DNA of 25,971 nucleotides from a virus. Below, piece after piece: positions 416-22,403 of this stretch. The notes under the pieces are model-generated. The model saw nothing but the letters and a program-made list of their open reading frames with translations, was not told where the DNA came from and made no database searches. Each line of letters starts with the position of its first letter. Position 1 is the first letter of the stretch. The stretch spans positions 1-25,971 of the IMG/VR virus record IMGVR_UViG_3300007511_000128, one strand, 5' to 3'. The position numbers and the translations under genes are program-made.

Positions 416-756
416 CAAACCCCTTTCTTTCTTCTTCTGTTAGTGCAGCCATCTTTCTCCCTTTCTTTTACAAAAGTTTTTGCTTCTTTCCATGTGCGTA
501 TTGATTTAATGGAAAGATAAGTTACTATGAGAAAGAATAAAGACACATAAAAAGAATATCCTACCCATACTAAGACTTTTTGTGAAGATATAAAGTTGTT
601 CATCGCTATGGCAAAACTAAGAACAAAGTAAGCGAAACAAAGTACCATTAGTATCATTTCCGCTATCTCTTTCCCAGTTGCTTTCCACCAGTCTTTAATT
701 TTATCCTTTGCCAATTCAATAAACTTTTTGAAGATTAGTTTAGTTTTGATTTTCAT
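415..756 (-). CDS. Two-TM membrane protein of the early region
   Basis: 113-aa protein with a basic, amphipathic N-terminus (about residues 1-30) and two hydrophobic segments at about 34-54 and 61-83, followed by a charged tail (WKEAKTFVKEREK). It should sit in the host inner membrane. The start ATG at 756 has a strong AAAGGAG lying inside the 3' end of the DUF5131 gene, and its stop overlaps the start of the next gene, so it is translationally coupled on both sides. Its C-terminal tail is nearly the same as that of the upstream gene because of a 50-bp direct repeat. Function is unknown; host-membrane takeover or superinfection exclusion is possible, but nothing in the sequence shows it. Confidence 0.75.
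   Translation of the reverse strand: MKIKTKLIFKKFIELAKDKIKDWWKATGKEIAEMILMVLCFAYFVLSFAIAMNNFISSQKVLVWVGYSFYVSLFFLIVTYLSIKSIRTWKEAKTFVKEREKDGCTNRRRKKGV
451..500. repeat. 50-bp direct repeat, copy 1
   Basis: Direct repeat of 758-807, with 46 of 50 positions identical by eye. It encodes the C-terminal tail of the two-TM protein. It also carries a ribosome-binding site (GGGAGAAAG) directly before an ATG at 452 that opens a 14-codon reading frame ending at 408. That tiny frame overlaps the start of the next gene and may be a remnant. Confidence 0.85.
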
Positions 757-1552
757 TTTCTTTCTCCTTTTCTTTTACAAAAGTTTTTGCTTCTTTCCGT
801 GTACGTACAGCAAATTTCTTCTCTATAACTTCGGGATATTGTTGCCAGATTTTGCCATCAATTTCTTTTCCGTTTAATTTTTTATTCCGTTTCACTTTGT
901 CGGCGCCCCAGGTCCCCCATTGTTTAAAGAAAAAAGCAATATCCTCTTTTTCGCATTGTTGTTTAATATTTACAACCCATTCTTTTTCCATTGGTCTTGC
1001 TTTGTTCCCACTTTCACCGCCAACAATAACCCAATCAATATTTTTTAAATTCAATTTGCCTAAATCTTCAAGTAATGGCTCTATCGAAAGAAATAATACG
1101 CTTGCATGCAGTTGTCTCAACTTATCAATTCTCGGCAAACCTTCTTTTTGATTTTCAACAGTAACACCCAACCAAATATTTTTTGGTATTTTTCGTTGCG
1201 ACAAATATTCAAACATTCTGTCTGCTCTTTTCGTCAAAATTTGATAGGTATGATGTGGCGTTTCTTCAATGACCTTAAATATTTTGTTTAAATATTCTTC
1301 TGGCATATCCTTATGAAAAATATCACTCATTGAATTTACAAAAAATACGGTTGGCTTTTTTCTTTTACAAGGGTCGTTTAGTCTGCTTAGAACGGGATTG
1401 AATTTAAAGCCGTTTTCATAGCCTTCTACGCCCATAGCCTGCAAACGAATTGCCATTGTTTCGGCATAGCAATTTTTACAGCCTGAACTAATTTTAGTGC
1501 AACCTGCCGATGGATTCCACGTTTGCTCTGTCCATTCTATTTTATGTGCCAT
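740..1552 (-). CDS. DUF5131 family protein (phage Gp37/Gp68-like), radical-SAM-like
   Basis: 270 aa. The N-terminus IEWTEQTWNPSAGCTKISSGCKNCYAE is the hallmark of the DUF5131 / phage Gp37-Gp68 family. Three cysteines (C18, C25, C28) are placed so they could ligate an iron-sulfur cluster, as in radical SAM enzymes. Further family-like blocks are FFVNSMSDIFHKDMP, YQILTKRADRM, WLGVTVENQ, LSIEPLLEDL and WVIVGGESG, and FFFKQWGTWG near residue 210. The biochemical role of the family is unsettled as far as I know. The last ~20 residues (RTRKEAKTFVKEKEKENENQN) look like an added tail and come from the direct repeat shared with the next gene. Start ATG at 1552 follows AAAAGG. Confidence 0.9.
   Translation of the reverse strand: MAHKIEWTEQTWNPSAGCTKISSGCKNCYAETMAIRLQAMGVEGYENGFKFNPVLSRLNDPCKRKKPTVFFVNSMSDIFHKDMPEEYLNKIFKVIEETPHHTYQILTKRADRMFEYLSQRKIPKNIWLGVTVENQKEGLPRIDKLRQLHASVLFLSIEPLLEDLGKLNLKNIDWVIVGGESGNKARPMEKEWVVNIKQQCEKEDIAFFFKQWGTWGADKVKRNKKLNGKEIDGKIWQQYPEVIEKKFAVRTRKEAKTFVKEKEKENENQN
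758..807. repeat. 50-bp direct repeat, copy 2
   Basis: Partner of 451-500 (four mismatches). It lies at the 3' end of the DUF5131 gene and encodes RTRKEAKTFVKEKEKE; the other copy encodes RTWKEAKTFVKEREKD. The block includes the Shine-Dalgarno sequence of the next gene, so the repeated unit is an end-of-gene tail plus ribosome-binding site. Confidence 0.85.
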
Positions 1553-1577
1553 CGTCTAACCTTTTATTCTCCTTTAA

Positions 1578-2117
1578 TTATTTGATTTCTATGCGTTCCT
1601 TCTCTATCAATGATGCTCCAGACACTTTTTCGCCGTTTTTAAGCGCAGTTTTGATCAATGCTTTATCTGCTTTTTTTACGATTTTGATGAATGTCTCTGG
1701 CAACAATTCCTCCGCATCAACTTGAACAGATTGTGATTTTTTTATCCAATATTTGTGAAGATTTGTCTTGATGAACAAATTTCCAGACGCATTCTTCTCG
1801 CCAATTTCATTTACAACCCAACGAACGATTTCGTGCAGCCTGTCAATTGCATTCAACCGTGATTTAATCTTTTTCTTGTATTCATCTATCAGTTCCTTGT
1901 GGTGATTGACAGCACCCTCCAGCATTGAAATTTCAAGGCGGATTGACTGAATCATGCGAGCAATATTGTCGGATTTGACAATCTGAGCATTGCGCAGTTC
2001 ATCCAGTTTTTCTTCCAACTCCGCAGACAATTCACCCTCGTTCGCAATAAGAATTTCAATCAAGGAACGATATTCTCTGATTAAATCTACTGTTCTTGTG
2101 TTTTTTATTTCTTCCAT
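1578..2117 (-). CDS. Siphovirus Gp157-like protein
   Basis: 179 aa, highly charged and largely helical. An N-terminal half rich in Leu/Glu forms a long coiled coil (about residues 20-100: LSAELEEKLDELRNA, then MIQSIRLEISMLEGAV), followed by a GNLFIKTNLHKYWIKKSQSV beta segment. The order (coiled coil, then a short FIKT...KYWIKKSQSVQV strand region, then LLPETFIKI) matches the Gp157 family of siphovirus early regions, which was linked to phage resistance in Streptococcus thermophilus. It lies between a zinc-ribbon gene and DUF5131 in an early operon, as is common for the family. The start ATG follows AAAGGAG at a rather long spacing. Confidence 0.85.
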   Translation of the reverse strand: MEEIKNTRTVDLIREYRSLIEILIANEGELSAELEEKLDELRNAQIVKSDNIARMIQSIRLEISMLEGAVNHHKELIDEYKKKIKSRLNAIDRLHEIVRWVVNEIGEKNASGNLFIKTNLHKYWIKKSQSVQVDAEELLPETFIKIVKKADKALIKTALKNGEKVSGASLIEKERIEIK

Positions 2118-2124
2118 TTTCTTT

Positions 2125-2295
2125 TTATTTCTCCTTTGCTTCTGCTTTCTCCTCTAATGAAGTTTCTTGTTCACATTGACAACACCAGACTACTTCCCCA
2201 TCATCTACCAATCCAGCTGACTTTCCTGTATTTATTTTCACCCATTGTTTTTCTTCAACATCAGAAGAACCACATTTTTCACATACATATTTCAT
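2125..2295 (-). CDS. Small zinc-ribbon protein (56 aa)
   Basis: Short gene in the apparent gap between Gp157 and the next upstream gene. The ATG at 2295 is preceded by AAAGGAGAAATAAA, the same signal used by the neighbouring gene at 2520, which strongly supports translation. The product starts MKYVCEKCGSSDVEEK and has a second pair of cysteines in WCCQCE, giving CxxC...CxxC, the pattern of a zinc ribbon. The C-terminus is a charged tail (LEEKAEAKEK). Role unknown; small zinc ribbons like this are common in phage early regions, where they may bind nucleic acid or host proteins. Confidence 0.75.
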   Translation of the reverse strand: MKYVCEKCGSSDVEEKQWVKINTGKSAGLVDDGEVVWCCQCEQETSLEEKAEAKEK

Positions 2296-2307
2296 TTTAT
2301 TTCTCCT

Positions 2308-2520
2308 TTATAACTCCGTAATATAATTATCAACAATATATTTAGCTTCTGTATATAGCTGAAATTCACCTAATTCATCCAAACGATCTTTAGAGATTTC
2401 AGTGATCCATCCATTATTGATTTTGAAATAATAGTAATTAGTATCTTCATTAACCAATTCAGGCACAGCAAAGGGATTGGTTGCTGTAATTTCTCTGAAT
2501 AGTTTATTTAGTTTATTCAT
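2308..2520 (-). CDS. Small early protein of unknown function (70 aa)
   Basis: 70-aa acidic soluble protein, probably alpha/beta (YYYFKINNGWITEISKDRLDEL, then a helical end YTEAKYIVDNYITEL). It is the first gene after the promoter at 2577-2605, with a leader of about 50 nt and AAAGGAG before its ATG. No family recognised. Being promoter-proximal, it is probably expressed early and strongly. Confidence 0.7.
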   Translation of the reverse strand: MNKLNKLFREITATNPFAVPELVNEDTNYYYFKINNGWITEISKDRLDELGEFQLYTEAKYIVDNYITEL

Positions 2521-2576
2521 TTTATTTCTCCTTTATTGCTTTTTAACTGTTTTAAAGTGCTGTTGCCAGCTACTAT

Positions 2577-2605
2577 AATATAACACTTTTTTTACAACAT
2601 GTCAA
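2577..2605 (-). promoter_or_regulatory. Sigma-70-type early promoter (copy 2)
   Basis: On the minus strand: TTGACA (2600-2605), a 17-bp spacer, then TATATT (2577-2582). It lies in the only open intergenic space of the left arm (2521-2640) and fires toward 2520-2308 and the genes beyond. The spacer and -10 region share a 19-base block, AAAAAAAGTGTTATATTAT, with the promoter at 5822-5850. The leader contains a short GCTG-gcaa-CAGC hairpin. Confidence 0.8.
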
Positions 2606-2640
2606 GAGAATTTTACAAAAAAATAAATTTTTTTTATGAT

Positions 2641-2898
2641 TTAACGCATCCCACAATTTAAGCATTTTTTCTCTTGGAATTTTCCAAGGCGCTTAAAGTG
2701 ATCTAAAAAAACCGTAGAATAATTCTTGTTTCCTGCTGAACGCTCGTTGTTATAAATCCTACGGCATTTTGGACAAAACTTCACATCGAATTGTTTCGGC
2801 GGTAGTTCTCTTTGTCGTTTTCGGCAGTGTTGTGGCTGCTTGTGATAAATATCCGCATACCACCATCCATTTTCTGCGTTGCAATAATCGTTACTCAT
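2641..2898 (-). CDS. Small zinc-ribbon protein (85 aa)
   Basis: 85-aa basic protein. C42-P-K-C45 and C79-L-N-C82 form two CxxC knuckles 33 residues apart, the signature of a zinc ribbon, with an aromatic N-terminus (NGWWYADIYHKQ). The ATG at 2898 overlaps the 3' end of rusA (stop at 2891), so it is coupled to it. The position next to a Holliday-junction resolvase and a replication initiator suggests nucleic-acid binding, but no named family was recognised. It ends at 2641, followed by the promoter-containing intergenic region. Confidence 0.75.
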   Translation of the reverse strand: MSNDYCNAENGWWYADIYHKQPQHCRKRQRELPPKQFDVKFCPKCRRIYNNERSAGNKNYSTVFLDHFKRLGKFQEKKCLNCGMR

Positions 2899-3286
2899 AT
2901 TCCTCCCTTATTTTTATTTCTGTGTAATTTTCACCATAAACTTTTTTTGCTTCAATCGAAAAGATTTGAGAGTCATCGCTCCAAAAATTGCGATTAAGTG
3001 CATCCATCACGAATTTCACTAAATTATCAATATCTGGCTTTGTTGTGTGGTTCTTTGGTGATGTGGCTTTTAGTTTCCCAGAACGATAATGGCTTTTCGG
3101 TCGCTGAAACGAAAAGGTTAGAATCAAGTGGACATTTTTGTAAGGTTTTGTTGGTTTGTGTTTTAATGCCATTAGCAGGAACTCTGCTTTGTCTTTTTTG
3201 CTCGGATCGTATGTCCACCCTTTTCTTGTGTGTCGATGCCTCTGTTGTGGCTTTGGTACTGCTTTAATTACGATCGTCGTATCCAT
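2891..3286 (-). CDS. rusA: RusA-like Holliday-junction resolvase
   Basis: 131 aa, close to the usual ~120 residues of RusA. The family core is present: a basic N-terminus (PKPQQRHRHTRKGW) and KPDIDNLVKFVMDALN followed by FWSDDSQI. The Asp residues D85, D87, D95 and D104/105 fit the metal-binding acidic residues of E. coli RusA. It would act as a dimer, resolving four-way junctions formed during phage replication and recombination, here alongside the annealing protein at 4504-5199. ATG at 3286 lies inside the 3' end of the replication initiator gene (stop at 3268). Confidence 0.92.
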   Translation of the reverse strand: MDTTIVIKAVPKPQQRHRHTRKGWTYDPSKKDKAEFLLMALKHKPTKPYKNVHLILTFSFQRPKSHYRSGKLKATSPKNHTTKPDIDNLVKFVMDALNRNFWSDDSQIFSIEAKKVYGENYTEIKIREEYE

Positions 3287-4044
3287 AGTCCATTATCCTG
3301 TCTTTGATAATCACTCTGTTTCTCTCCTTCATCTATCTTCTTTAAAATCTGGTCATATGTAAATTCTTTTTGCGTGGAATTAACCGTATCTTTCCATCGC
3401 TCATTCCTCAAATAATTTTTTAATAGCGGACAAAAATTATTGTTTGGTAATTGTCCGCTTTCTTTTTGTTTTTTAATCGCCTCTATAATATCCATTGCCA
3501 ACTGATCATGAACCTTGATTTGATTCCAAACTCGAGCGGCACTTTGGATGTCGTTCAGGTTCGGGTATAAATTCACAATCATCTCCCAGCGAGAACGCAA
3601 CCAGATAAAATTGCTCGTATATTCTTTTTCTTTCTTTTTAATTCTTTTTAATTCTTTGTTTGTGTCCATTTGATGTTCATTTGATGTTCGTTTGATGTTC
3701 ATTTGATGTTCGTTTGATGTTCGCCCGTTTTGGTAAGTCTCGTAATTACAAACAGTTAGGTATGTCGTTTTGTTGTCCGATTTCAGTTCAATCATAGAAT
3801 CATTTTCGAGCAGAAGCAAGAATCGCCTTGTTTTGCTTCGATTCCAGCCGAATTTCTTCGCCCATGTCATTGTGGAATTACACGACTCACCTCTCTTGCA
3901 GGTGACAATTCTATCACCGAGAAGTACTTTTTTTTCATCATGATTGACATCCATCAGAATTTCCAGCCACGCTTTCAGTTTCTCCGAGTCAGACCACAGC
4001 CAGTGCTGTCGGAGTTTTCTGTGGATGAGAATGTAGCCGCTCAT
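3268..4044 (-). CDS. Phage replication initiator / replisome organizer (wHTH N-domain)
   Basis: 258 aa. The N-terminus (residues 1-105; GYILIHRKLRQHWLW, GDRIVTCKRGES, WAKKFGWNRSKTRRFLLLLE, TTYLTVCNYETYQ) is the winged-helix DNA-binding domain typical of phage replication O-like and DnaD-type proteins. A repetitive linker (about 108-128) is encoded by the iterons at 3667-3721, then comes a Lys-rich stretch, and a helical C-terminal domain (about 145-225; PNLNDIQSAARVW through FCPLLKNYLRNERW) that probably recruits the helicase loader or helicase. No helicase gene is in the window, so host helicase is likely used. Start ATG at 4044 has no strong Shine-Dalgarno and follows an inverted repeat, hinting at control of translation. 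Confidence 0.82.
   Translation of the reverse strand: MSGYILIHRKLRQHWLWSDSEKLKAWLEILMDVNHDEKKVLLGDRIVTCKRGESCNSTMTWAKKFGWNRSKTRRFLLLLENDSMIELKSDNKTTYLTVCNYETYQNGRTSNEHQMNIKRTSNEHQMDTNKELKRIKKKEKEYTSNFIWLRSRWEMIVNLYPNLNDIQSAARVWNQIKVHDQLAMDIIEAIKKQKESGQLPNNNFCPLLKNYLRNERWKDTVNSTQKEFTYDQILKKIDEGEKQSDYQRQDNGLWIRRS
3667..3721. repeat. Five 11-bp iterons, candidate phage replication origin
   Basis: Five perfect tandem units of C[A/G]TTTGATGTT (plus-strand reading), each exactly 11 bp, within the initiator gene; the second base alternates A or G. The unit is not a multiple of three, so it is not explained by a simple peptide repeat: three units encode 11 residues that then recur (TSNEHQM twice). 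Immediately to the left (about 3600-3660) is a T/A-rich tract (TTTTTCTTTCTTTTTAATTC). Iterons plus an adjacent AT-rich stretch inside the initiator gene is the layout of the lambda origin in gene O. Confidence 0.75.
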
Positions 4045-4139
4045 ATCAGAGTAACCGAGACATTGGCGGCAGAGAGTAGCCGTCTGAACCTCACGATTTC
4101 AGATGTCTCGGTTATGCGTAGTTTGTCTCTCATTCCCAT
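4041..4139 (-). CDS. Possible 32-aa ORF upstream of the initiator
   Basis: Short frame starting at ATG 4139 (or 4133) and ending TGA at 4041, overlapping the initiator start as ATGA, which would couple the two. The product is basic (begins MGMRDKLRITETSE). There is no strong Shine-Dalgarno, and the stretch overlaps the inverted repeat 4052-4114, so it may instead be untranslated leader. A still shorter frame (TTG at 4199, 16 codons, ending at 4149) follows a strong AAGGAGG; it may be a leader peptide or chance, since that AGGAGG also encodes the Arg-Arg of the preceding protein's C-terminus. Confidence 0.3.
   Translation of the reverse strand: MGMRDKLRITETSEIVRFRRLLSAANVSVTLI
4052..4114. promoter_or_regulatory. 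12-bp perfect inverted repeat before the initiator gene
   Basis: TAACCGAGACAT (4052-4063) and ATGTCTCGGTTA (4103-4114) are perfect inverted copies separated by 39 nt. A smaller CGGC...GCCG hairpin can form in the loop. The left arm ends only 8 nt before the initiator ATG. In RNA this would be a cruciform-type stem next to the start codon; in DNA it could be a pair of operator half-sites about five helical turns apart. Which of these applies cannot be told from the sequence. Confidence 0.6.
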
Positions 4140-4195
4140 AATTGCAATTTACTCGTCTTCCTCTATATCGAGCAAATCATCATGTAATTCGCACC

Positions 4196-4504
4196 TCAAA
4201 ATAACCTCCTTTGCTTTTTATCTTCGAAATACTCATATTTTGCCTTTTGAAGCCCTTTTCTTGCAATCCTTATCCCTGCCTCTCTTTCAATGAGATTTTG
4301 GATCGTAGCATCTAATTCCTGCGGATTTTCGGCAAGCCAATAACCTTTTGCACCGCTGCAAATAGGAAATCCCTCTTTTCGTAGATTATGGATCGCAGAA
4401 CGAATTTCAATTCCCTTTTTTGCGAATTTTCGCTCTAATCGATCCGACAAAATCGGATTAGGATGTACAAGAAAGTGGTTTTTAATTTGGGATTCGAGAA
4501 TCAT
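4196..4504 (-). CDS. Winged-helix phage protein with clamp-binding-like C-terminus
   Basis: 102 aa. The segment IEIRSAIHNLRKEGFPICSGAKGYWLAENPQEL (about residues 32-64) is a winged-helix pattern common in small phage proteins, followed by a helix (LIEREAGIRIARKGLQKA). The very C-terminus is KKQRRLF. QxxLF at a C-terminus resembles the beta-sliding-clamp-binding pentamer QL[SD]LF, which would fit a protein acting at the replication fork; this is an inference. The ATG overlaps the stop of the annealing-protein gene (TAATG). Its stop is at 4196, followed by about 150 nt of leader-like sequence before the initiator. Confidence 0.7.
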   Translation of the reverse strand: MILESQIKNHFLVHPNPILSDRLERKFAKKGIEIRSAIHNLRKEGFPICSGAKGYWLAENPQELDATIQNLIEREAGIRIARKGLQKAKYEYFEDKKQRRLF

Positions 4505-5879: not shown

Positions 5880-6836
5880 TTATGAATAGAATGGATACCA
5901 TGTGCCGCTTGACTTTACTATGCCGTTTTTTCCAACGATCAAATCAATAATCCAAAAGCCAGTATGGAATGCGATTCGCTTCCCTCTTGCCCATTTTGAT
6001 TGTGTCTGGATAGAGCCGATTGAATAAGTATGGATAAATCGCTCAAAAATATAAATGGCTTTGTGTGTGTGTCCTGCGAAAATTGCGCTTGGCTTTTCGC
6101 CGCCAGTTAGGCTTTCGATAAGTTTCTGCAAGCGATAACTCAAAGCGTAACTATTGCCATCGAGTCCGTGCCACAGTTTTAAGGTCGCTTTTCCTTTTAG
6201 ATTTATGTTTCCTTCATCATGTCCAAGATAAGTCGCACCAATCGAATCGCAGACATCCTGAACAATATTTGCCCCATTAGATTTCATAAACCAAAAATCA
6301 TGATTCCCACTAATAACAAATAATGGCAGCGGACATTCCCTGAACAAACGAATCGCTTCTTTCTTTTGTGCTGCATATCCGAGATGAGAACACTCATAAA
6401 TATGTCCGGCCCTGTTACTCATCCCTTCGGTTACATCTCCAGAATGAGTTACGAATTCGACTCCTTCTTTTTCGAATTGTTCATACGCTTGGAAAAGAAA
6501 ATCTGGCTTCGTGTATATAGAGCCAATGTGAGTATCAGAGATTGCACCAATTCGGATTCGTTGCCCTGTAAAACCTACGACTGGCACTTTGTCCATCCCA
6601 GCCATCACCCGACCGCCCTTGGCAATTGCTTTTAGTTCAGAATCACTATATTGTTCGACAATTTGTTTTAAAATGGATGATTGGTCGAGGTCCAGAGTGA
6701 GACCTCGTCTTCTTGCTTCTCTCTTATATCTGGAAATTGATTCGTGCGCCAAACCAAAATTGTCGCAAGTTTCCTGTTCAGAATGATTTTGGAGATATGT
6801 TAAGACTTCTTTGAGTTTTTTGTCTTTTATTTGCAT
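5880..6836 (-). CDS. Calcineurin-like metallophosphoesterase with N-terminal HTH
   Basis: 318 aa. All four metal-binding motifs of the family are present: SDTH (100-103), GDVTEG (133-138), GNHD (177-180) and GHTH (255-258). The first ~45 residues are a helix-turn-helix (QETCDNFGLAHESISRYKRE), a combination often seen in phage phosphoesterases. It should hydrolyse phosphoester bonds in a two-metal centre; a nucleotide or nucleic-acid substrate is likely given the HTH, but this is an inference. It sits between the lysis genes and the repressor, beyond the stem-loop 6846-6878, and its stop is only 30 nt from the -35 box of the early promoter. Confidence 0.88.
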   Translation of the reverse strand: MQIKDKKLKEVLTYLQNHSEQETCDNFGLAHESISRYKREARRRGLTLDLDQSSILKQIVEQYSDSELKAIAKGGRVMAGMDKVPVVGFTGQRIRIGAISDTHIGSIYTKPDFLFQAYEQFEKEGVEFVTHSGDVTEGMSNRAGHIYECSHLGYAAQKKEAIRLFRECPLPLFVISGNHDFWFMKSNGANIVQDVCDSIGATYLGHDEGNINLKGKATLKLWHGLDGNSYALSYRLQKLIESLTGGEKPSAIFAGHTHKAIYIFERFIHTYSIGSIQTQSKWARGKRIAFHTGFWIIDLIVGKNGIVKSSGTWYPFYS

Positions 6837-9990: not shown

Positions 9991-10901
9991 CACCAACTCT
10001 CCCTTATATTTAATGAAATTTTATAGACTCTATTTGCCACCTGTTCTTTTCGGAATGTTTTCATATCAAAGCGTGCTATCGCAAAATCCGACACCTCGTT
10101 GTCTGGCTGAAAAATAAACGGAAGATGACCTCCCATCGTCTTGTGAACAACATCAGAAAAGAAATTAGACTCATCCTCTGAGTAGGCACTCGGTTCTAAA
10201 TCACTCTCTGAAACATAATTAAAACTCAAATTCCAAACTCTTCGACCTGAATAATGCCAATCGTCATCACCCTCCAACTGCCAAGCATCCAAATCGCCCC
10301 ATTTAGGCGGCTTAACCCAATTGGCATGACTCAAAGTAGAACCGCCTTTTGCCGTTATTTGTTTTAACCCGTATTCTCTTCCAACAGATAACGATAAGTC
10401 TGGAGAAAATGGCATATCGTAGTATTTTCCGAAAACAACAGACCCAATCTGGTGAGATGTATTCCCTGTCTGCCAAAGTCGAAAGGTTATTGTATCCGTA
10501 TCGTCAAAAGGGTTGAATGTCCCAATAGAATACCCCTTCTTGATTGCACAGAAGCCAGAACCATGCGAGGAAGCGTTAATTATTTCTGTTGTATTCTGTG
10601 CATTCTGTACTGCATCGTTAAGTTTCGCATATATCCGCATTCCTGCCGATTCGGTATTGTCCCCATGATGGTGTTCGGTGTACTCGTGATTTAAAACCGC
10701 TAAGAAATTTACACCCTTGCCGTTCCCAGAGATAGATTCTTCGTAGTAGTTCTGGTCGTTGCTTCCTACCAATTTTTTTTGAGATGGGTTTAACCGCCAT
10801 AAATTATTTTGTGCGGTTTGATTCCCAAGTGCTAACCACCACTCACCCCAATTTACATAAAATCTTGGTGTGCCTACATTCCCATAACTCACGATGTCCA
10901 C
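9990..10901 (-). CDS. Minor tail protein
   Basis: 303 aa, Trp- and Tyr-rich and beta-rich, with a HHHGDNTESAGMRIYAKLND patch at about 77-96 and a C-terminal domain (RRVWNLSFNYVSESDLEPSA through FAIARFDMKTFRKEQVANRVYKISLNIRESW) that looks like a tail-tube-related beta fold. Family not identified. Start uncertain: GTG at 10901, or GTG at 10892, which overlaps the previous stop as GTGA and has a GGGGGTGG six bases before it. It lies in the tail-tip block between the dockerin protein and the fibres. Confidence 0.6.
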   Translation of the reverse strand: MDIVSYGNVGTPRFYVNWGEWWLALGNQTAQNNLWRLNPSQKKLVGSNDQNYYEESISGNGKGVNFLAVLNHEYTEHHHGDNTESAGMRIYAKLNDAVQNAQNTTEIINASSHGSGFCAIKKGYSIGTFNPFDDTDTITFRLWQTGNTSHQIGSVVFGKYYDMPFSPDLSLSVGREYGLKQITAKGGSTLSHANWVKPPKWGDLDAWQLEGDDDWHYSGRRVWNLSFNYVSESDLEPSAYSEDESNFFSDVVHKTMGGHLPFIFQPDNEVSDFAIARFDMKTFRKEQVANRVYKISLNIRESW

Positions 10902-11281
10902 CCCCTATCCAAATCTTCCCATTTTTTCGTCAAATCTTCCCAGTTAGTATTCAAGCGTTCCCACAATTGGATATTTTCTAACTCAATCACTACTGGAATT
11001 TTCTCTGCGTCCCAACTCGCAACTATCACATCAAAGACTTGAAAATATCCCGAATAAGCCCCTAAAAACTCTGGAAGGTCGCTTACCCCTAAAGAATAAA
11101 TAAGTATCTTTTTTGCCCCCATTGCGGCTGTCCAGTCGTCAGGTAAAGCCCAATCAAAGGTTGGTTTTCCTCTAAAAGCAATCTCAATGCCTGCAATTGC
11201 CCCATTTGATTCTATTCTTAACTGTCCATCGCCATAAAACAATTTGGCTGTGGTTGGTTTTGGTTTTGCTTTGTTTTTCAT
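10889..11281 (-). CDS. Small cohesin-like beta-sandwich candidate (130 aa)
   Basis: 130 aa. Residues ~10-100 read as a small all-beta domain: LFYGDGQLRIESNGAIAGIE, then LPDDWT, KKILIYSLGVSDLP and FQVFDVIVASW. The pattern IAGIEI..., a Trp-containing turn, then ILIYSLG...G-x-F resembles the strand order of cohesin and related carbohydrate-binding sandwiches; this is my inference, not a recognised family. The C-terminus has a Trp heptad (NTNWEDLTKKWEDLDRGWTS). It starts by ATGA overlap with the dockerin-bearing gene just upstream, so both are made in the same place and ratio. Confidence 0.5.
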   Translation of the reverse strand: MKNKAKPKPTTAKLFYGDGQLRIESNGAIAGIEIAFRGKPTFDWALPDDWTAAMGAKKILIYSLGVSDLPEFLGAYSGYFQVFDVIVASWDAEKIPVVIELENIQLWERLNTNWEDLTKKWEDLDRGWTS

Positions 11282-13653
11282 TCTTCTAATATCAGATTTA
11301 CAATCTGTATGATGTCAAGCACATTTATCCGCCCATCTTCGTTTACATCGGCTCTCACAAATTCTGCCTCTGTTGGGACGTCTGCATCCAATGTGAAATT
11401 TGCACATTTAATTGCGTCTAAAACATTTACTTTCCCATCTCCGTTTATATCGCCGAGAATACCTTGTTCGGGTTCTTCATCCCCCTCGCCTGTCCCTGCT
11501 GTTAGTTTATGTAATTGAATGGTCTTGAGTTTCACTTTGTCGATTGATTTTGTACTCCCAATCACCATGAAATACGGATAAATCCATTGCCCATTGCGTG
11601 TATTACCGACAGTATAGTCTTCTCCGTATGCTTTCATGCCACCAAGGAGTTCATCAAAGCAAATTATATCCCCTATTTCTACATCCAAATAATTCAAAGG
11701 AAGGTTTAGTCCAAATATATTGTGTTGGTTACAATACCAAGCAAGCAAGAAGTCTTGTAACTTTCCTGCTGTTTCTTCGTCTCGGATATATTCGGCTTCG
11801 AACTCATATTCGCTTTCAGGATGAGACCCATCCTCTTCCACCTGCAAGCCGTAAAAATCCATCGAATAGCCGCTAAATAAATCAGTAACAGACTTCCAAT
11901 TTTTGTTTTTCATAAATTCGTCTGTAGCGTAATCTTTTTCGTACAAGATTTTCACTCGTGTTTTTACATCTTCAATATTTGTTCGGGAAAGACTGTAATC
12001 AATGACATCTTCCGCCTTGATTATGTGATCAACATCACTATAAGTATCCTTAATTTCAGCAAAACCAAAATTACCATCATTCTTGAACACAGGAATAAAT
12101 GGAGTGTTGCTTGCTATTTCCTCTATTAACTTTTTGCTATCTATTTTCTTAGATACGGTAAAAGCAGTTTTCCAATCTGTTGAAATCGGGTCTGTGTCAT
12201 TAGAGAAACCCAATTCATTCGTAACTATATCCGCTATTTGGAATGTGGGTTGCCGATAATTATCAATATCACGCCCTCTAACATTCGCAAAATAATCTCT
12301 GGCAAATGGCTCGGTAACCTTAAATTCAAAGAACAACCGTAAGTCTTGCGATTGGTCCAATGTTACTTGCCCGTTAGTATTGCCGTATAAATCAAAGGCG
12401 AGTTTTGCACCGCTATCTGCCGAATAACGAATATACATATTGGAAGGGAAAGAGCCAACACTCTCAGACAACACACCTGTATCTGTCTCGTCCGACAAAT
12501 TCTGTGAGATGTTGATGTTCTCACCATCGGCTTTGATATATCTCGACATGTGGTCGTTGTTCGCATTTATCGTTTCGTTTAAATCAAGTCGCCAAGACAG
12601 CGTAACATCTGAAGCCAACTTTGACTCGGTAATAGATAAATAATCAACAAAAACTCGCAGTTCTTGCACAAGATAACCGCCGCCCGTGAGGGAAGCAACA
12701 ATTCCGACCGCACCCACTACATTAAATTCAGAATTGTTCTGGGAAAGTTCTATAATATTATGTTGTCTAAATGCATCATCCATAGAGAAATAATCTGTGG
12801 TATGCACAAAATAGGTCCACCCACCTGTGCTGTTAGGGTTACCATCTGGGATTCTTATAGACGTTGGGTACGCCCATGTCCGACAAGCCATTGTGCCAGC
12901 ATACAAATCAGATGCCCCTGAAATATCCAACGAAATCGTATGGGGGTTTTCGTAATTAAGTTGACCATTTGGGGTGATATACATAGGATGTTGTTCTGAT
13001 GATAAATAATAAATGGTTGGTGTTTCCTCATCCCCCGATTCAGGATACAATATTTGTTTCATGTTCCTTGAATCATAAAATATTTCACGATAAGAATCTT
13101 CTCCACTCCCATCGTGGTCAGTACTGCCGAAAACGACAGGCGACCTGTCCACATCACCGTAAACCATAGGGATTGGTTTGTTTTTGTATTTAGGCATAAT
13201 GTCATCGCTATCGCCAAGCCGTGCAACAGGCACATCTCTGTGAAGCGTAGATTGCGTTCTGTCCTCTAACTCAATTGTGCATTTTGTGTCATCATGCGAA
13301 AACCTGCGTATAGTTCCTTCGTATATCTTTAATGCCGTATTACCAAAATCGTCAAAGTCTGTTGTTTGGGAAGCCCACCAAATGCAACATGTTTTATTGA
13401 TAAAATTCGGCAATCTATCGCTAAACCGTTGCCCATTATATTCAACATTTGATACATCTAAAGATACATTACTAATCTTTAATTTTCGGCTTCCAAAATC
13501 CAAGGATTCTTTTACGCTCGGAAGGTTTAATAGCAGTGGCTCGTACCCACCAGACACATTGCGAGTAGAAATCTTTATGTCATCAATAACCACCACAGGG
13601 AATAAATTTAAATTCTTCCCTAAATTATGGAAACCTAAAGGAATGTCAAGCAA
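11278..13653 (-). CDS. Large tail protein with C-terminal dockerin-like domain
   Basis: 791 aa. It directly follows the tape measure and so is likely a tail-tip or baseplate component. Residues 1-230 are beta-rich (SGGYEPLLLNLPSVKESLDFG; KNKPIPMVYGDVDRSPVVFG). The region about 480-690 (KLIEEIASNTPFIPVFKNDG; LPLNYLDVEIGDIICFDELL) recalls tail hub proteins. Residues 733-791 form a type I dockerin-like unit after an acidic linker (GTGEGDEEPEQG). Start is TTG 13653, overlapping the tape measure stop; there is no nearby ATG. Family of the body not identified. Confidence 0.75.
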   Translation of the reverse strand: MLDIPLGFHNLGKNLNLFPVVVIDDIKISTRNVSGGYEPLLLNLPSVKESLDFGSRKLKISNVSLDVSNVEYNGQRFSDRLPNFINKTCCIWWASQTTDFDDFGNTALKIYEGTIRRFSHDDTKCTIELEDRTQSTLHRDVPVARLGDSDDIMPKYKNKPIPMVYGDVDRSPVVFGSTDHDGSGEDSYREIFYDSRNMKQILYPESGDEETPTIYYLSSEQHPMYITPNGQLNYENPHTISLDISGASDLYAGTMACRTWAYPTSIRIPDGNPNSTGGWTYFVHTTDYFSMDDAFRQHNIIELSQNNSEFNVVGAVGIVASLTGGGYLVQELRVFVDYLSITESKLASDVTLSWRLDLNETINANNDHMSRYIKADGENINISQNLSDETDTGVLSESVGSFPSNMYIRYSADSGAKLAFDLYGNTNGQVTLDQSQDLRLFFEFKVTEPFARDYFANVRGRDIDNYRQPTFQIADIVTNELGFSNDTDPISTDWKTAFTVSKKIDSKKLIEEIASNTPFIPVFKNDGNFGFAEIKDTYSDVDHIIKAEDVIDYSLSRTNIEDVKTRVKILYEKDYATDEFMKNKNWKSVTDLFSGYSMDFYGLQVEEDGSHPESEYEFEAEYIRDEETAGKLQDFLLAWYCNQHNIFGLNLPLNYLDVEIGDIICFDELLGGMKAYGEDYTVGNTRNGQWIYPYFMVIGSTKSIDKVKLKTIQLHKLTAGTGEGDEEPEQGILGDINGDGKVNVLDAIKCANFTLDADVPTEAEFVRADVNEDGRINVLDIIQIVNLILEE
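11281..11457 (-). other. Type I dockerin-like domain at the C-terminus of the tail protein
   Basis: Two Ca-binding loops in tandem: GDINGDGKVNVLDAI and ADVNEDGRINVLDIIQIVN. Each has DxNxDGxxNxxD, the dockerin/EF-hand-like signature, with the usual spacing of about 23-30 residues between loops and a helix after each. In known biology dockerins bind cohesins, holding enzymes on cellulosomes; similar pairs also occur in non-cellulosomal proteins. Presence on a phage tail is unusual. Confidence 0.8.
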
Positions 13654-15553
13654 GACCTAAATCCCCACCCCTGCGTAATGCTTCTTTAATCGCTGGCACA
13701 GCCTCGTCTTCTATGAAATCTTTGCTTAATACATTGCCAGAAAAATTTATTGTAATTCCTGTCCCACGCCCCGAATTTAGGCGGCTCGCTGTATCTACGC
13801 CAATAGATTCTACAGCAGACTTTGACAGCACAAATTCACCCGGGGTTAGCATCGCTGGAACAGTATCACTATTCCCTGGACCACCAACCAAACCACCTCT
13901 TGCGAATTTTTGCCTTTCAATCATTTTGACGTTTGCTAATCCAGCAGCTACTGCTGATGCAGATGCAGCTACAGCAAGGGCTGGCCCAACTATTGGAATA
14001 CCAACCATTGATTTATAAGCACCTGTCGCAGAAGCATAAGTATCCATCAACGCTTGCATTTGTGCAGCTCTCTGTGCTGTTTTCGCAAATTGAGGATGTG
14101 CTTGAGATGCTATTTTCATATTACTCGCGATATTAGCAACACCTGCTCTTGATAGTAATGTAATCGCGTGTATCGTTTCACCTGCTGATACATTTATGCT
14201 TGGAAGCGTTTCATCTGCATATTTTGTGGAAAGTGGTATGAGTTTGTTTTCCATAATATCTGCCGATTCTCTTAATCCTGTATCAACTTCAAATGCTGGT
14301 GTTTCAGCGATAACATTTCGCGTTATTGCTAATTGTGATTCAGTTTTCTGAATATTGACCAACAGCTTTAAATTCTCACCTAATAATTCTGATTCTTCTG
14401 TTAATTGCTCTAATCTTTCATCGGCAAAACTTATATCGCTCTGTAAATCCTCTTGCTTTTCTTGGTTTTGTTCTATCAGATCAGAATTAGCATCTATCAT
14501 TTCATTCAATACGTCATTATTCATATCCGCAAATTCGCCTTCTCGCTGAACCATTGAAATTCTTTTATCTTGTAATGTAGTAAATTCTTTACTTAATCCA
14601 ATCTGTTTAGCTGTGCCTTCTGCATTTAATGTGGCAAAGTGCGTTGTTTCTTCTGCCTTTTGATTTATTTCTGCCTGAAGAACATCTATGTCTTTAAAAA
14701 ATCCTTTTGTGAATTTTAATTCATTATTATATAACAATAAATCGCGCTGTAATTGGATTTTTTCCAACGCAAACAGGGCTTCCGTAGATGCACCAAGTTC
14801 TTTTAATTCGCGGATAGTTGTTTCTAATGGCGTTTCTGTGAATCTCTTAAAAAAACTACCAAGCGATACAGCTGCTTTTGTGAATAGTGTTGAAACAGAC
14901 GTAACGGCTGGTGATACTATTGAACCCATTTCTTCAGCTACATCACCAAAAGCGTTCTTCATTTGCTCTATTGAGCCTGTCATTGTTTCGGCTTGTGCCT
15001 TTGCTTGACCACCCCAAAGTCGTGCAATGCCTTCTGTCAAACTATCCAAGCGTTCCGTTGATCCAACCGCACCTTCTACCGCGACACCATATCTCGTCAA
15101 TGCGTTTGTAGATGATCCTAATGTTTTGGCAACCAATTCACCAGCTGCTTTTAAATCCATTCCCATTGCAGCTGCCATATTCAGCGTTGCTTCGGTGGCT
15201 TTTGCGATAGCACCTTCATCTTTTTCAAAAGCTGCGATTGATGCCATTACTCCGAGTGTTGCTTCATCACCGAACATTGTTACCTTTTGTAATGCTCTTG
15301 CTTTGTTCAGCAATGCGTCAGATATTTTGCCTAACTGTGATGATAATTTCTTTTCAGCGAGTTCTTGCTCACCAGCAGCTGCTATAACGGCTTTCAATCC
15401 ACTAAGAATGCCACGAGCCGCGAAGAATGATCCACCTGCTATCAAAGCACCTTTGGCAAGTTTCTTGAGTGAATTATCAACGCCACCAAGTTCTTTCTTG
15501 GTTTTCTTTGTGCCTTTTGTTTTTACTTTTATATTTAATTTTTTATCAGCCAT
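13646..15553 (-). CDS. Tail tape measure protein
   Basis: 635 aa, the second-longest gene in the window, right after the chaperone frameshift pair. It begins MADKKLNIKVKTKGTKKTKK and is mostly helical, with Ala-rich stretches (residues ~30-65 and 80-170), long coiled coils in the middle (about 330-420) and a hydrophobic segment near 510-545 (SMVGIPIVGPALAVAASASA), typical of tape measure proteins. It sets tail length; at the known ~0.15 nm per residue the tail would be about 95 nm (inference). Its start overlaps the stop of the chaperone extension (ATGGCTGA). No peptidase or lysozyme domain is apparent. Confidence 0.9.
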   Translation of the reverse strand: MADKKLNIKVKTKGTKKTKKELGGVDNSLKKLAKGALIAGGSFFAARGILSGLKAVIAAAGEQELAEKKLSSQLGKISDALLNKARALQKVTMFGDEATLGVMASIAAFEKDEGAIAKATEATLNMAAAMGMDLKAAGELVAKTLGSSTNALTRYGVAVEGAVGSTERLDSLTEGIARLWGGQAKAQAETMTGSIEQMKNAFGDVAEEMGSIVSPAVTSVSTLFTKAAVSLGSFFKRFTETPLETTIRELKELGASTEALFALEKIQLQRDLLLYNNELKFTKGFFKDIDVLQAEINQKAEETTHFATLNAEGTAKQIGLSKEFTTLQDKRISMVQREGEFADMNNDVLNEMIDANSDLIEQNQEKQEDLQSDISFADERLEQLTEESELLGENLKLLVNIQKTESQLAITRNVIAETPAFEVDTGLRESADIMENKLIPLSTKYADETLPSINVSAGETIHAITLLSRAGVANIASNMKIASQAHPQFAKTAQRAAQMQALMDTYASATGAYKSMVGIPIVGPALAVAASASAVAAGLANVKMIERQKFARGGLVGGPGNSDTVPAMLTPGEFVLSKSAVESIGVDTASRLNSGRGTGITINFSGNVLSKDFIEDEAVPAIKEALRRGGDLGLA

Positions 15554-21647: not shown

Positions 21648-22403
21648 TTATTTTCCCAAATCTAATATTGCTAATTTTTTTCCTGCACTAATTATTTTTT
21701 TTACCATACTGTCTTTGTCGCTCACCTTAATTCCTGCAACAGCAAGCCCATCAATGACAGTACTTTTTACACCCAGTGTATTCGCAAGAAACAAAGCATC
21801 ATTCCCGTAGGCTTCATAGTGGTCTTTTACTATGATTAACAAGATCGCATCCTCTGGGATTCCCTTTGTAATGGTTTTAATTTGTTTTTCTCTTAAACCT
21901 ACGCTCCTTATTATTCTGCTTGGAATTTTCGTCTTTTTCCTCACCAGCGGCTGCTCTAAATTCTCCCCCTTATATCCACTCGCAACAAATGTGCATCGGC
22001 AATTAGCACCACAAACGCTGAACCCCGAACCCGGCAGTCCTGCTGCTTGCCAATACTTCAAAGTACCTTCTTCTCCGTGCCTACCCACGCAATCAAAACA
22101 ACTTCTGTCATCACCAATAGTTACCCATCGCAAAATTTCAACACCTTTGTCTTGATATTTTTTCAATGTTGAGAATAACCCTGCTTGTTCAATTCCGTTA
22201 GATGTGTGCATTTTTAATTTTTTCTTAAACCCACCAAAGATTTGACCGCCTGTTTGAAGGTCGGTTAATAGGGTCTTTTTTATTGCATCCTTGGACATTC
22301 CAGATGCTTGCATTTGTCGAATGATTCCTTTAATGTTCAAAGTGGTTTGAGCCGCTGCATTCGCAATGTTGTTCGCTAATGTGATTTCCATCGCATCAGG
22401 CAC
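21648..22403 (-). CDS. Minor head protein, phage Mu F-like (head morphogenesis)
   Basis: 251 aa. Residues ~92-137 show the family core: RWVTIGDDRSCFDCVGRHG followed by GFSVCGANCRCTFV, with five cysteines (C102, C105, C131, C135, C137) for metal binding. The ~110-residue C-terminal extension (VRKKTKIPSRIIRSVGLREK through KLAILDLGK), which includes a Lys-rich turn and a Rossmann-like stretch (ILLIIVKDHYEAYGND), is not part of the core. GTG 22403 is well placed: GGAG seven bases before it, and it overlaps the upstream stop. It should sit near the portal and help initiate head assembly. Confidence 0.82.
   Translation of the reverse strand: MPDAMEITLANNIANAAAQTTLNIKGIIRQMQASGMSKDAIKKTLLTDLQTGGQIFGGFKKKLKMHTSNGIEQAGLFSTLKKYQDKGVEILRWVTIGDDRSCFDCVGRHGEEGTLKYWQAAGLPGSGFSVCGANCRCTFVASGYKGENLEQPLVRKKTKIPSRIIRSVGLREKQIKTITKGIPEDAILLIIVKDHYEAYGNDALFLANTLGVKSTVIDGLAVAGIKVSDKDSMVKKIISAGKKLAILDLGK

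Follow-up and report, generated by a model that had tools for sequence, protein, structure and literature searches.

Why should a phage tail protein end in a dockerin, and what does the small gene that overlaps its end contribute? We addressed these questions in virus record IMGVR_UViG_3300007511_000128 (25,971 bases, analysed over its whole length and referred to here as the window), in which an initial annotation had placed a dockerin on a 791-aa tail protein, P0001, and a cohesin-like candidate in the next gene, P0002, whose main domain we call X. Cohesin-dockerin pairs are among the strongest non-covalent protein couplings known and are used in biotechnology. Our results suggest that a molecular snap fastener, shared with Marinimicrobia, serves these phages in the construction of one part of the tail. 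Put in full, tailed phages of one clade, with Marinimicrobia as their probable hosts, would carry at the tail tip a non-covalent, calcium-dependent snap between a dockerin and a cohesin-fold domain, drawn from a dyad shared with secreted proteins of the host; this is a tentative reading that falls somewhat short of probable.

A dockerin on the tail protein and the gene that follows it

The structural genes of the window lie on the minus strand, as do all window features given below. The P0001 gene (11278-13653) stands directly 3' of the gene for the tape measure protein (13646-15553; PHROG tape measure matches; C-terminus GNVLSKDFIEDEAVPAIKEALRRGGDLG), and homologues occupy the same position in L002, L003, L255, L257 and other contigs; judged by gene order, P0001 would hold the hub/Tal position. 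Residues 733-788 of P0001 (11290-11457) matched the dockerin profile PF00404 at E=1.7e-10 in the protein scan (41.4 bits, cut-off 22.9) and at E=5.1e-13 in a genome search, and the closest solved relatives were the clostridial cellulosomal dockerins of CelS and endoglucanase SS. Both calcium-binding loops, DINGDGKVNVLD (residues 735-746; 11416-11451) and DVNEDGRINVLD (residues 769-780; 11314-11349), are 12 residues long and have all canonical calcium ligands, with D or N at positions 1, 3, 5, 9 and 12. By profile and loops, the C-terminus is a bona fide type I dockerin, as first proposed. The loops are preceded by an acidic linker (GTGEGDEEPEQG), delimited by alignment to residues 716-731 (KLTAGTGEGDEEPEQG; 11461-11508); relatives of 782-825 aa align with the body of P0001, end just before this linker and have neither the dockerin nor P0002.

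P0002 (10889-11281) is a 130-aa gene whose start overlaps the P0001 stop in the letters ATGA (11278-11281). Hidden Markov model (HMM) boundaries, alignments and the predicted fold place the X core at residues ~10-101 (10979-11254), with the signature IESNGxIAGIEI..G..LPxxW..ILIySL...Y.G. It is followed by a phage-specific C-terminal tail (10892-10978) in which Trp recurs every seven residues, with exact heptad spacing (W107-W114-W121-W128); W-rich ends partly similar to this tail were also present in L279, L281 and L283. The linker, the overlap and the Trp heptads were all visible in the sequence as initially described. The next gene, P0003 (9990-10901), encodes a 303-aa tail protein of the xVGTPRFY family and is a conserved neighbour of X. 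P0002 is a real, conserved gene, because related genes hold the same place in ~17 other phage representatives and X genes are under purifying selection (ratio of non-synonymous to synonymous substitution rates, dN/dS, of 0.10-0.47 in six pairs).

Protein scans of the viral contigs and the phage collection with P0001 and P0002 gave no useful match, and queries with X found nothing in the phage collection. The viral contigs were also scanned with X (as a five-row alignment) and with the tape measure C-terminus, and a census was then made with family models. In the contigs found, the tape measure gene is followed by one or more genes for hub-side proteins, then by X and then by P0003. X stood at the same spot in ~18 phage representatives, and the protein before it ended in a dockerin in 14 of these (the window, L255, L264, L270, L271, L276, L277, L278, L280, L281, L284, L285, L287 and L288); five records had neither dockerin nor X by the family models (L002, L003, L092, L097 and L100), and no census record with a visible downstream interval had a dockerin without X. 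Co-occurrence of the two gave a one-sided Fisher value of 0.004, which serves as a guide only as the representatives are related. The adjacency of dockerin and cohesin-like genes, which had been thought unusual, is a pairing conserved across the phage clade and not a chance arrangement. Dockerin and X are encoded by separate genes in 13 of the 14 representatives that have both, with overlaps of 1, 4 or 8 nucleotides or gaps of 1-16 nucleotides; in L284 both lie in a single chain with a 13-aa linker, and joining the P0001 and P0002 ends in the window would give a linker of 11 aa.

Distant relatives were retrieved by tape measure (L002 and L003) and by terminase. Their P0001-like protein stops where the P0001 body stops, with the P0003 homologue directly next; 0 of 33 such records searched contained a dockerin, and a search of the same 33 records for P0002, run without a positive control, gave no match. 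Recent capture of P0002 by the window phage alone was ruled out, as phage X domains are found across the clade and cluster together (2 label changes, compared with 16 in shuffles). The hub protein itself is encoded by two genes (~600 and 790-1050 aa) in L255, L264, L284, L285, L287 and L288, and in each of these it is the second gene that carries the dockerin. P0003-family genes occur as tandem copies in L278 (14359-17615), L279 and L283, and both L278 copies carry an internal insert.

The dockerin-X dyad in Marinimicrobia

A dockerin scan of cellular genomes led to a Marinimicrobia peptidase (L105) whose dockerin is very similar to that of P0001, and a search of Marinimicrobia with P0002 gave matches down to E=1.7e-11 at 37% identity. 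Among Marinimicrobia loci chosen for containing X, all 52 with a full X domain showed the order dockerin, linker of 4-15 aa, X and type IX secretion system (T9SS) tail motif. A Pfam scan of nine such proteins found a dockerin in all nine (eight above the cut-off) and the PF18962 sorting domain in all nine. With a 20-row model, X was found in 50 of 244 Marinimicrobia genomes, in up to 19 copies; none was found in 198 genomes from the phylum of G035 (Muribaculaceae bacterium) or in 199 from that of G045 (Acetivibrio), neither of the latter searches having its own positive control. The window pair has the dockerin-X order of the bacterial cassette, but divided over two genes, and the gene break falls within the region equivalent to the bacterial linker. 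P0002 has no PF18962 sorting domain, and its Trp tail occupies the place of the secretion tail in bacterial X versions. Thus, the unit of dockerin and cohesin-fold domain is one chain in cells and two adjacent genes in most phages. The idea of a cohesin-dockerin pair stood as far as the dockerin and the cohesin-like fold are concerned, but the two are not a simple couple, since the bacterial domains adjoin in one chain at every locus and L284 is fused.

We modelled X with AlphaFold. Separate dockerin rows aligned with X rows fell onto X, so X rows alone were used (16 phage rows), and the natural fusion L284 was modelled instead of an artificial fused reading of the two L255 genes. The model of X had nine strands with a mean predicted local distance difference test score (pLDDT) of ~93 across the domain, and its seven best matches in the PDB were all cohesins (E from 6.6e-4 to 3.3e-2), some of them chains from a complex of cohesin with dockerin. 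The Archaeoglobus cohesin 2xdh was also a structural match. Comparison of profiles gave 99.7% for phage against bacterial X and 95.5% (P=1.6e-8) for the combined X profile against cohesin-like domains of Marinimicrobia, with column-shuffled controls at ≤2.6%; the combined profile gave 5% against a broad cohesin set. Among the Marinimicrobia domains, that of L203 scored above the PF00963 cut-off, and L193 was retrieved with PF00963 above the cut-off. The cohesin-like fold anticipated for the 130-aa neighbour was thus supported by strand number, structural matches and this profile link. As to remote homology with known cohesins, the profile comparisons were divided, with a high value for the Marinimicrobia domains and a low one for the broad set. 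None of the phage X members matched PF00963. X is therefore best called a cohesin-fold domain, as modelled, and not a PF00963 member; it is probably homologous to cohesins, and as a domain it is covered by no Pfam family. Among the weak structural matches was BFVD entry A0A6J5M064, an uncultured phage protein from outside the window with a type IX secretion sorting annotation. The large L193 protein (positions 721-3321; genome G034) itself contains three or more cohesin-like domains and is a candidate scaffold or receptor for dockerins.

Binding in trans and its rivals

We give roughly an even chance to the explanation that we favour, a split dyad in which dockerin and X bind in trans at the tail tip. 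A type I dockerin terminates P0001, in the hub position, and X, the product of the overlapping next gene, would be loaded onto the tail tip through calcium-dependent binding by the dockerin; together the two chains would re-create what in Marinimicrobia is a single-chain unit of two domains before the type IX secretion tail. X may then present its phage-specific C-terminal tail, or a free face, at the tail tip, where it would serve assembly with the next tail proteins or contact with the host. Binding, its calcium dependence and the location in the virion are thus all predicted, as are the Marinimicrobia hosts. Domains that are fused in some proteins and split into adjacent genes in others often interact, an established argument though not a certain one. 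Binding in trans is favoured because both bacteria and one phage have the fused form, because X shares its fold with the known partner of dockerins, and because no dockerin was found without X in the phages of the census where the interval is visible.

Several results weigh against this explanation. X occurs without a canonical dockerin in L257, L273, L279 and L283; a degenerate or single-loop dockerin-like stretch lies near it, by eye, in the last three, and none in L257. A mirror-tree comparison of dockerin and X distances in 13 phages gave no correlation (r=0.10, p=0.26), and the distances of X and P0003 in phages did correlate (r=0.66, p=0.001). P0002 alone matched no Pfam or PHROG family and, folded as a single sequence, gave no usable model (pLDDT 38.7); the template modelling scores (TM-scores) of the X model to cohesins were just 0.3-0.4; and phage X alone reached 0.1% against the broad cohesin set and 32% against the Marinimicrobia cohesin-like domains. 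The dockerin half of the L284 model was of low confidence, because there were no aligned dockerin rows, and it gave no interface model. In bacteria, dockerin and X were less strongly correlated (0.25) than X and the T9SS tail (0.44).

The main rival holds that the dockerin, with X as a neighbour in cis or in trans, is a receptor-binding device for cohesin-like domains of the host surface and imitates the attachment of the host's secreted enzymes. We regard this as unlikely, and yet it has substance: cohesins were encoded in all 12 genomes with close dockerins, L193 offers an array of cohesin-like domains, the cellular dyad is located on secreted T9SS proteins, and the dockerin does not track P0003. 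One of two phage dockerin pairs evolved fast (dN/dS 0.78 and 0.26), as a receptor-facing part could. Docking of this kind leaves unexplained why X is retained as the neighbour of the dockerin, and also why it persists where the dockerin has gone; the host on which it depends is putative, with a P0003-family fragment in 1 of 245 Marinimicrobia genomes. The next rival treats the two as independent end-cap domains, in which P0003 or the C-terminal tail of X keeps X in place and the dockerin is no more than a calcium-stabilised terminus. The tracking of P0003 rather than the dockerin by X and the four lineages with X alone speak for it, but the invariant order and the short linker seen both in bacteria and in L284, the cohesin fold of X and the lack of dockerin-only records all speak against it, and we think it rather improbable. 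It could also be argued that a dockerin-X gene has been broken by a sequencing error, or that a bacterial tail cassette was joined by chance to a phage contig, as the bacterial form is fused and one extra base near GAAGAATGA would join the frames. The same two-gene layout recurs in many independent phage contigs, with differing overlaps and gaps and the same flanking tail genes, and such an artefact is so improbable that we rejected it.

Marinimicrobia are weakly suggested as hosts, because the dyad is shared and because the P0003-family fragment lies near a tyrosine-recombinase-like gene (L290; genome G203, contig C143, a record that contains a stretch of N), with no such fragment among 296 genomes from the phylum of G035. 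This fragment is a possible prophage trace.

Known systems and neighbouring genes

In its full dockerin, by profile and loops, and its cohesin-like X, the pair resembles the type I cohesin-dockerin couple of cellulosomes (PF00404/PF00963). Unlike there, the dockerin is on a phage tail protein, X has ~90-95 residues compared with ~140 and no PF00963 match, and the two are gene neighbours rather than scaffold and enzyme, with no enzymes involved. X modules of scaffoldins precede the dockerin. Their X-module/dockerin dyads (PDB 4iu2) are alike in setting a dockerin beside a small beta domain in one chain, whereas here X follows the dockerin, is cohesin-like and is a separate gene in most phages. 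Dockerins on phage proteins have a precedent in two lysis enzymes from phage contigs (CHAP-type amidase and lysozyme-like by sequence), which end in dockerin repeats (two in L006, positions 3572-4216; at least one in L008, positions 3143-4081); in contrast to P0001, these are lysis-type enzymes and not tail proteins, and no adjoining cohesin-fold gene was noted.

Among cellular systems, the available part of the report on the cloacimonadotal 'Ca. Stygibacter' (PMC8542988) describes secreted enzymes, C25 peptidases among them, that have dockerins at the C-terminus and are linked with type IX secretion, as well as a cohesin scaffold whose C-terminal domain is conserved. These proteins resemble those of the Marinimicrobia loci, but that part of the report describes no domain between dockerin and secretion tail, and no virus, unlike here. 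Non-cellulosomal dockerins and cohesins, including both kinds in one protein, are described for anaerobic methanotrophic (ANME) archaea (PMC9012536, as available); these and the Archaeoglobus protein 2xdh share with our pair a use outside cellulose degradation, but the ANME dockerin proteins are cellular, and the available text reports no link to phage tails.

Literature searches, which mostly covered papers outside subscription, found none joining dockerins and Marinimicrobia and no dockerin-cohesin pair in phage tails or otherwise in a virion. If our explanation is true, this would be, to our knowledge, the first coupling of the cohesin-dockerin type in a virion, and X a new family of dockerin partners. 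It would also give phages a modular way to attach tail-tip parts, reveal a molecular device common to uncultured Marinimicrobia and probable phages, define a new domain family that many secreted proteins of bacteria carry between their dockerin and secretion tail, and offer a means of testing ideas about the tail tip of an uncultured phage clade and about its hosts.

Elsewhere in the window, a 251-aa protein (21648-22403) combines part of a Mu F-like head morphogenesis protein (PF04233, E 2.8e-4) with a C-terminal match to MutS domain I (PF01624, 36.6 bits, cut-off 20.6), an odd fusion. A calcineurin-like phosphoesterase related to DNA repair exonucleases is encoded at 5880-6836, and a DnaD-like helicase loader at 3268-4044.

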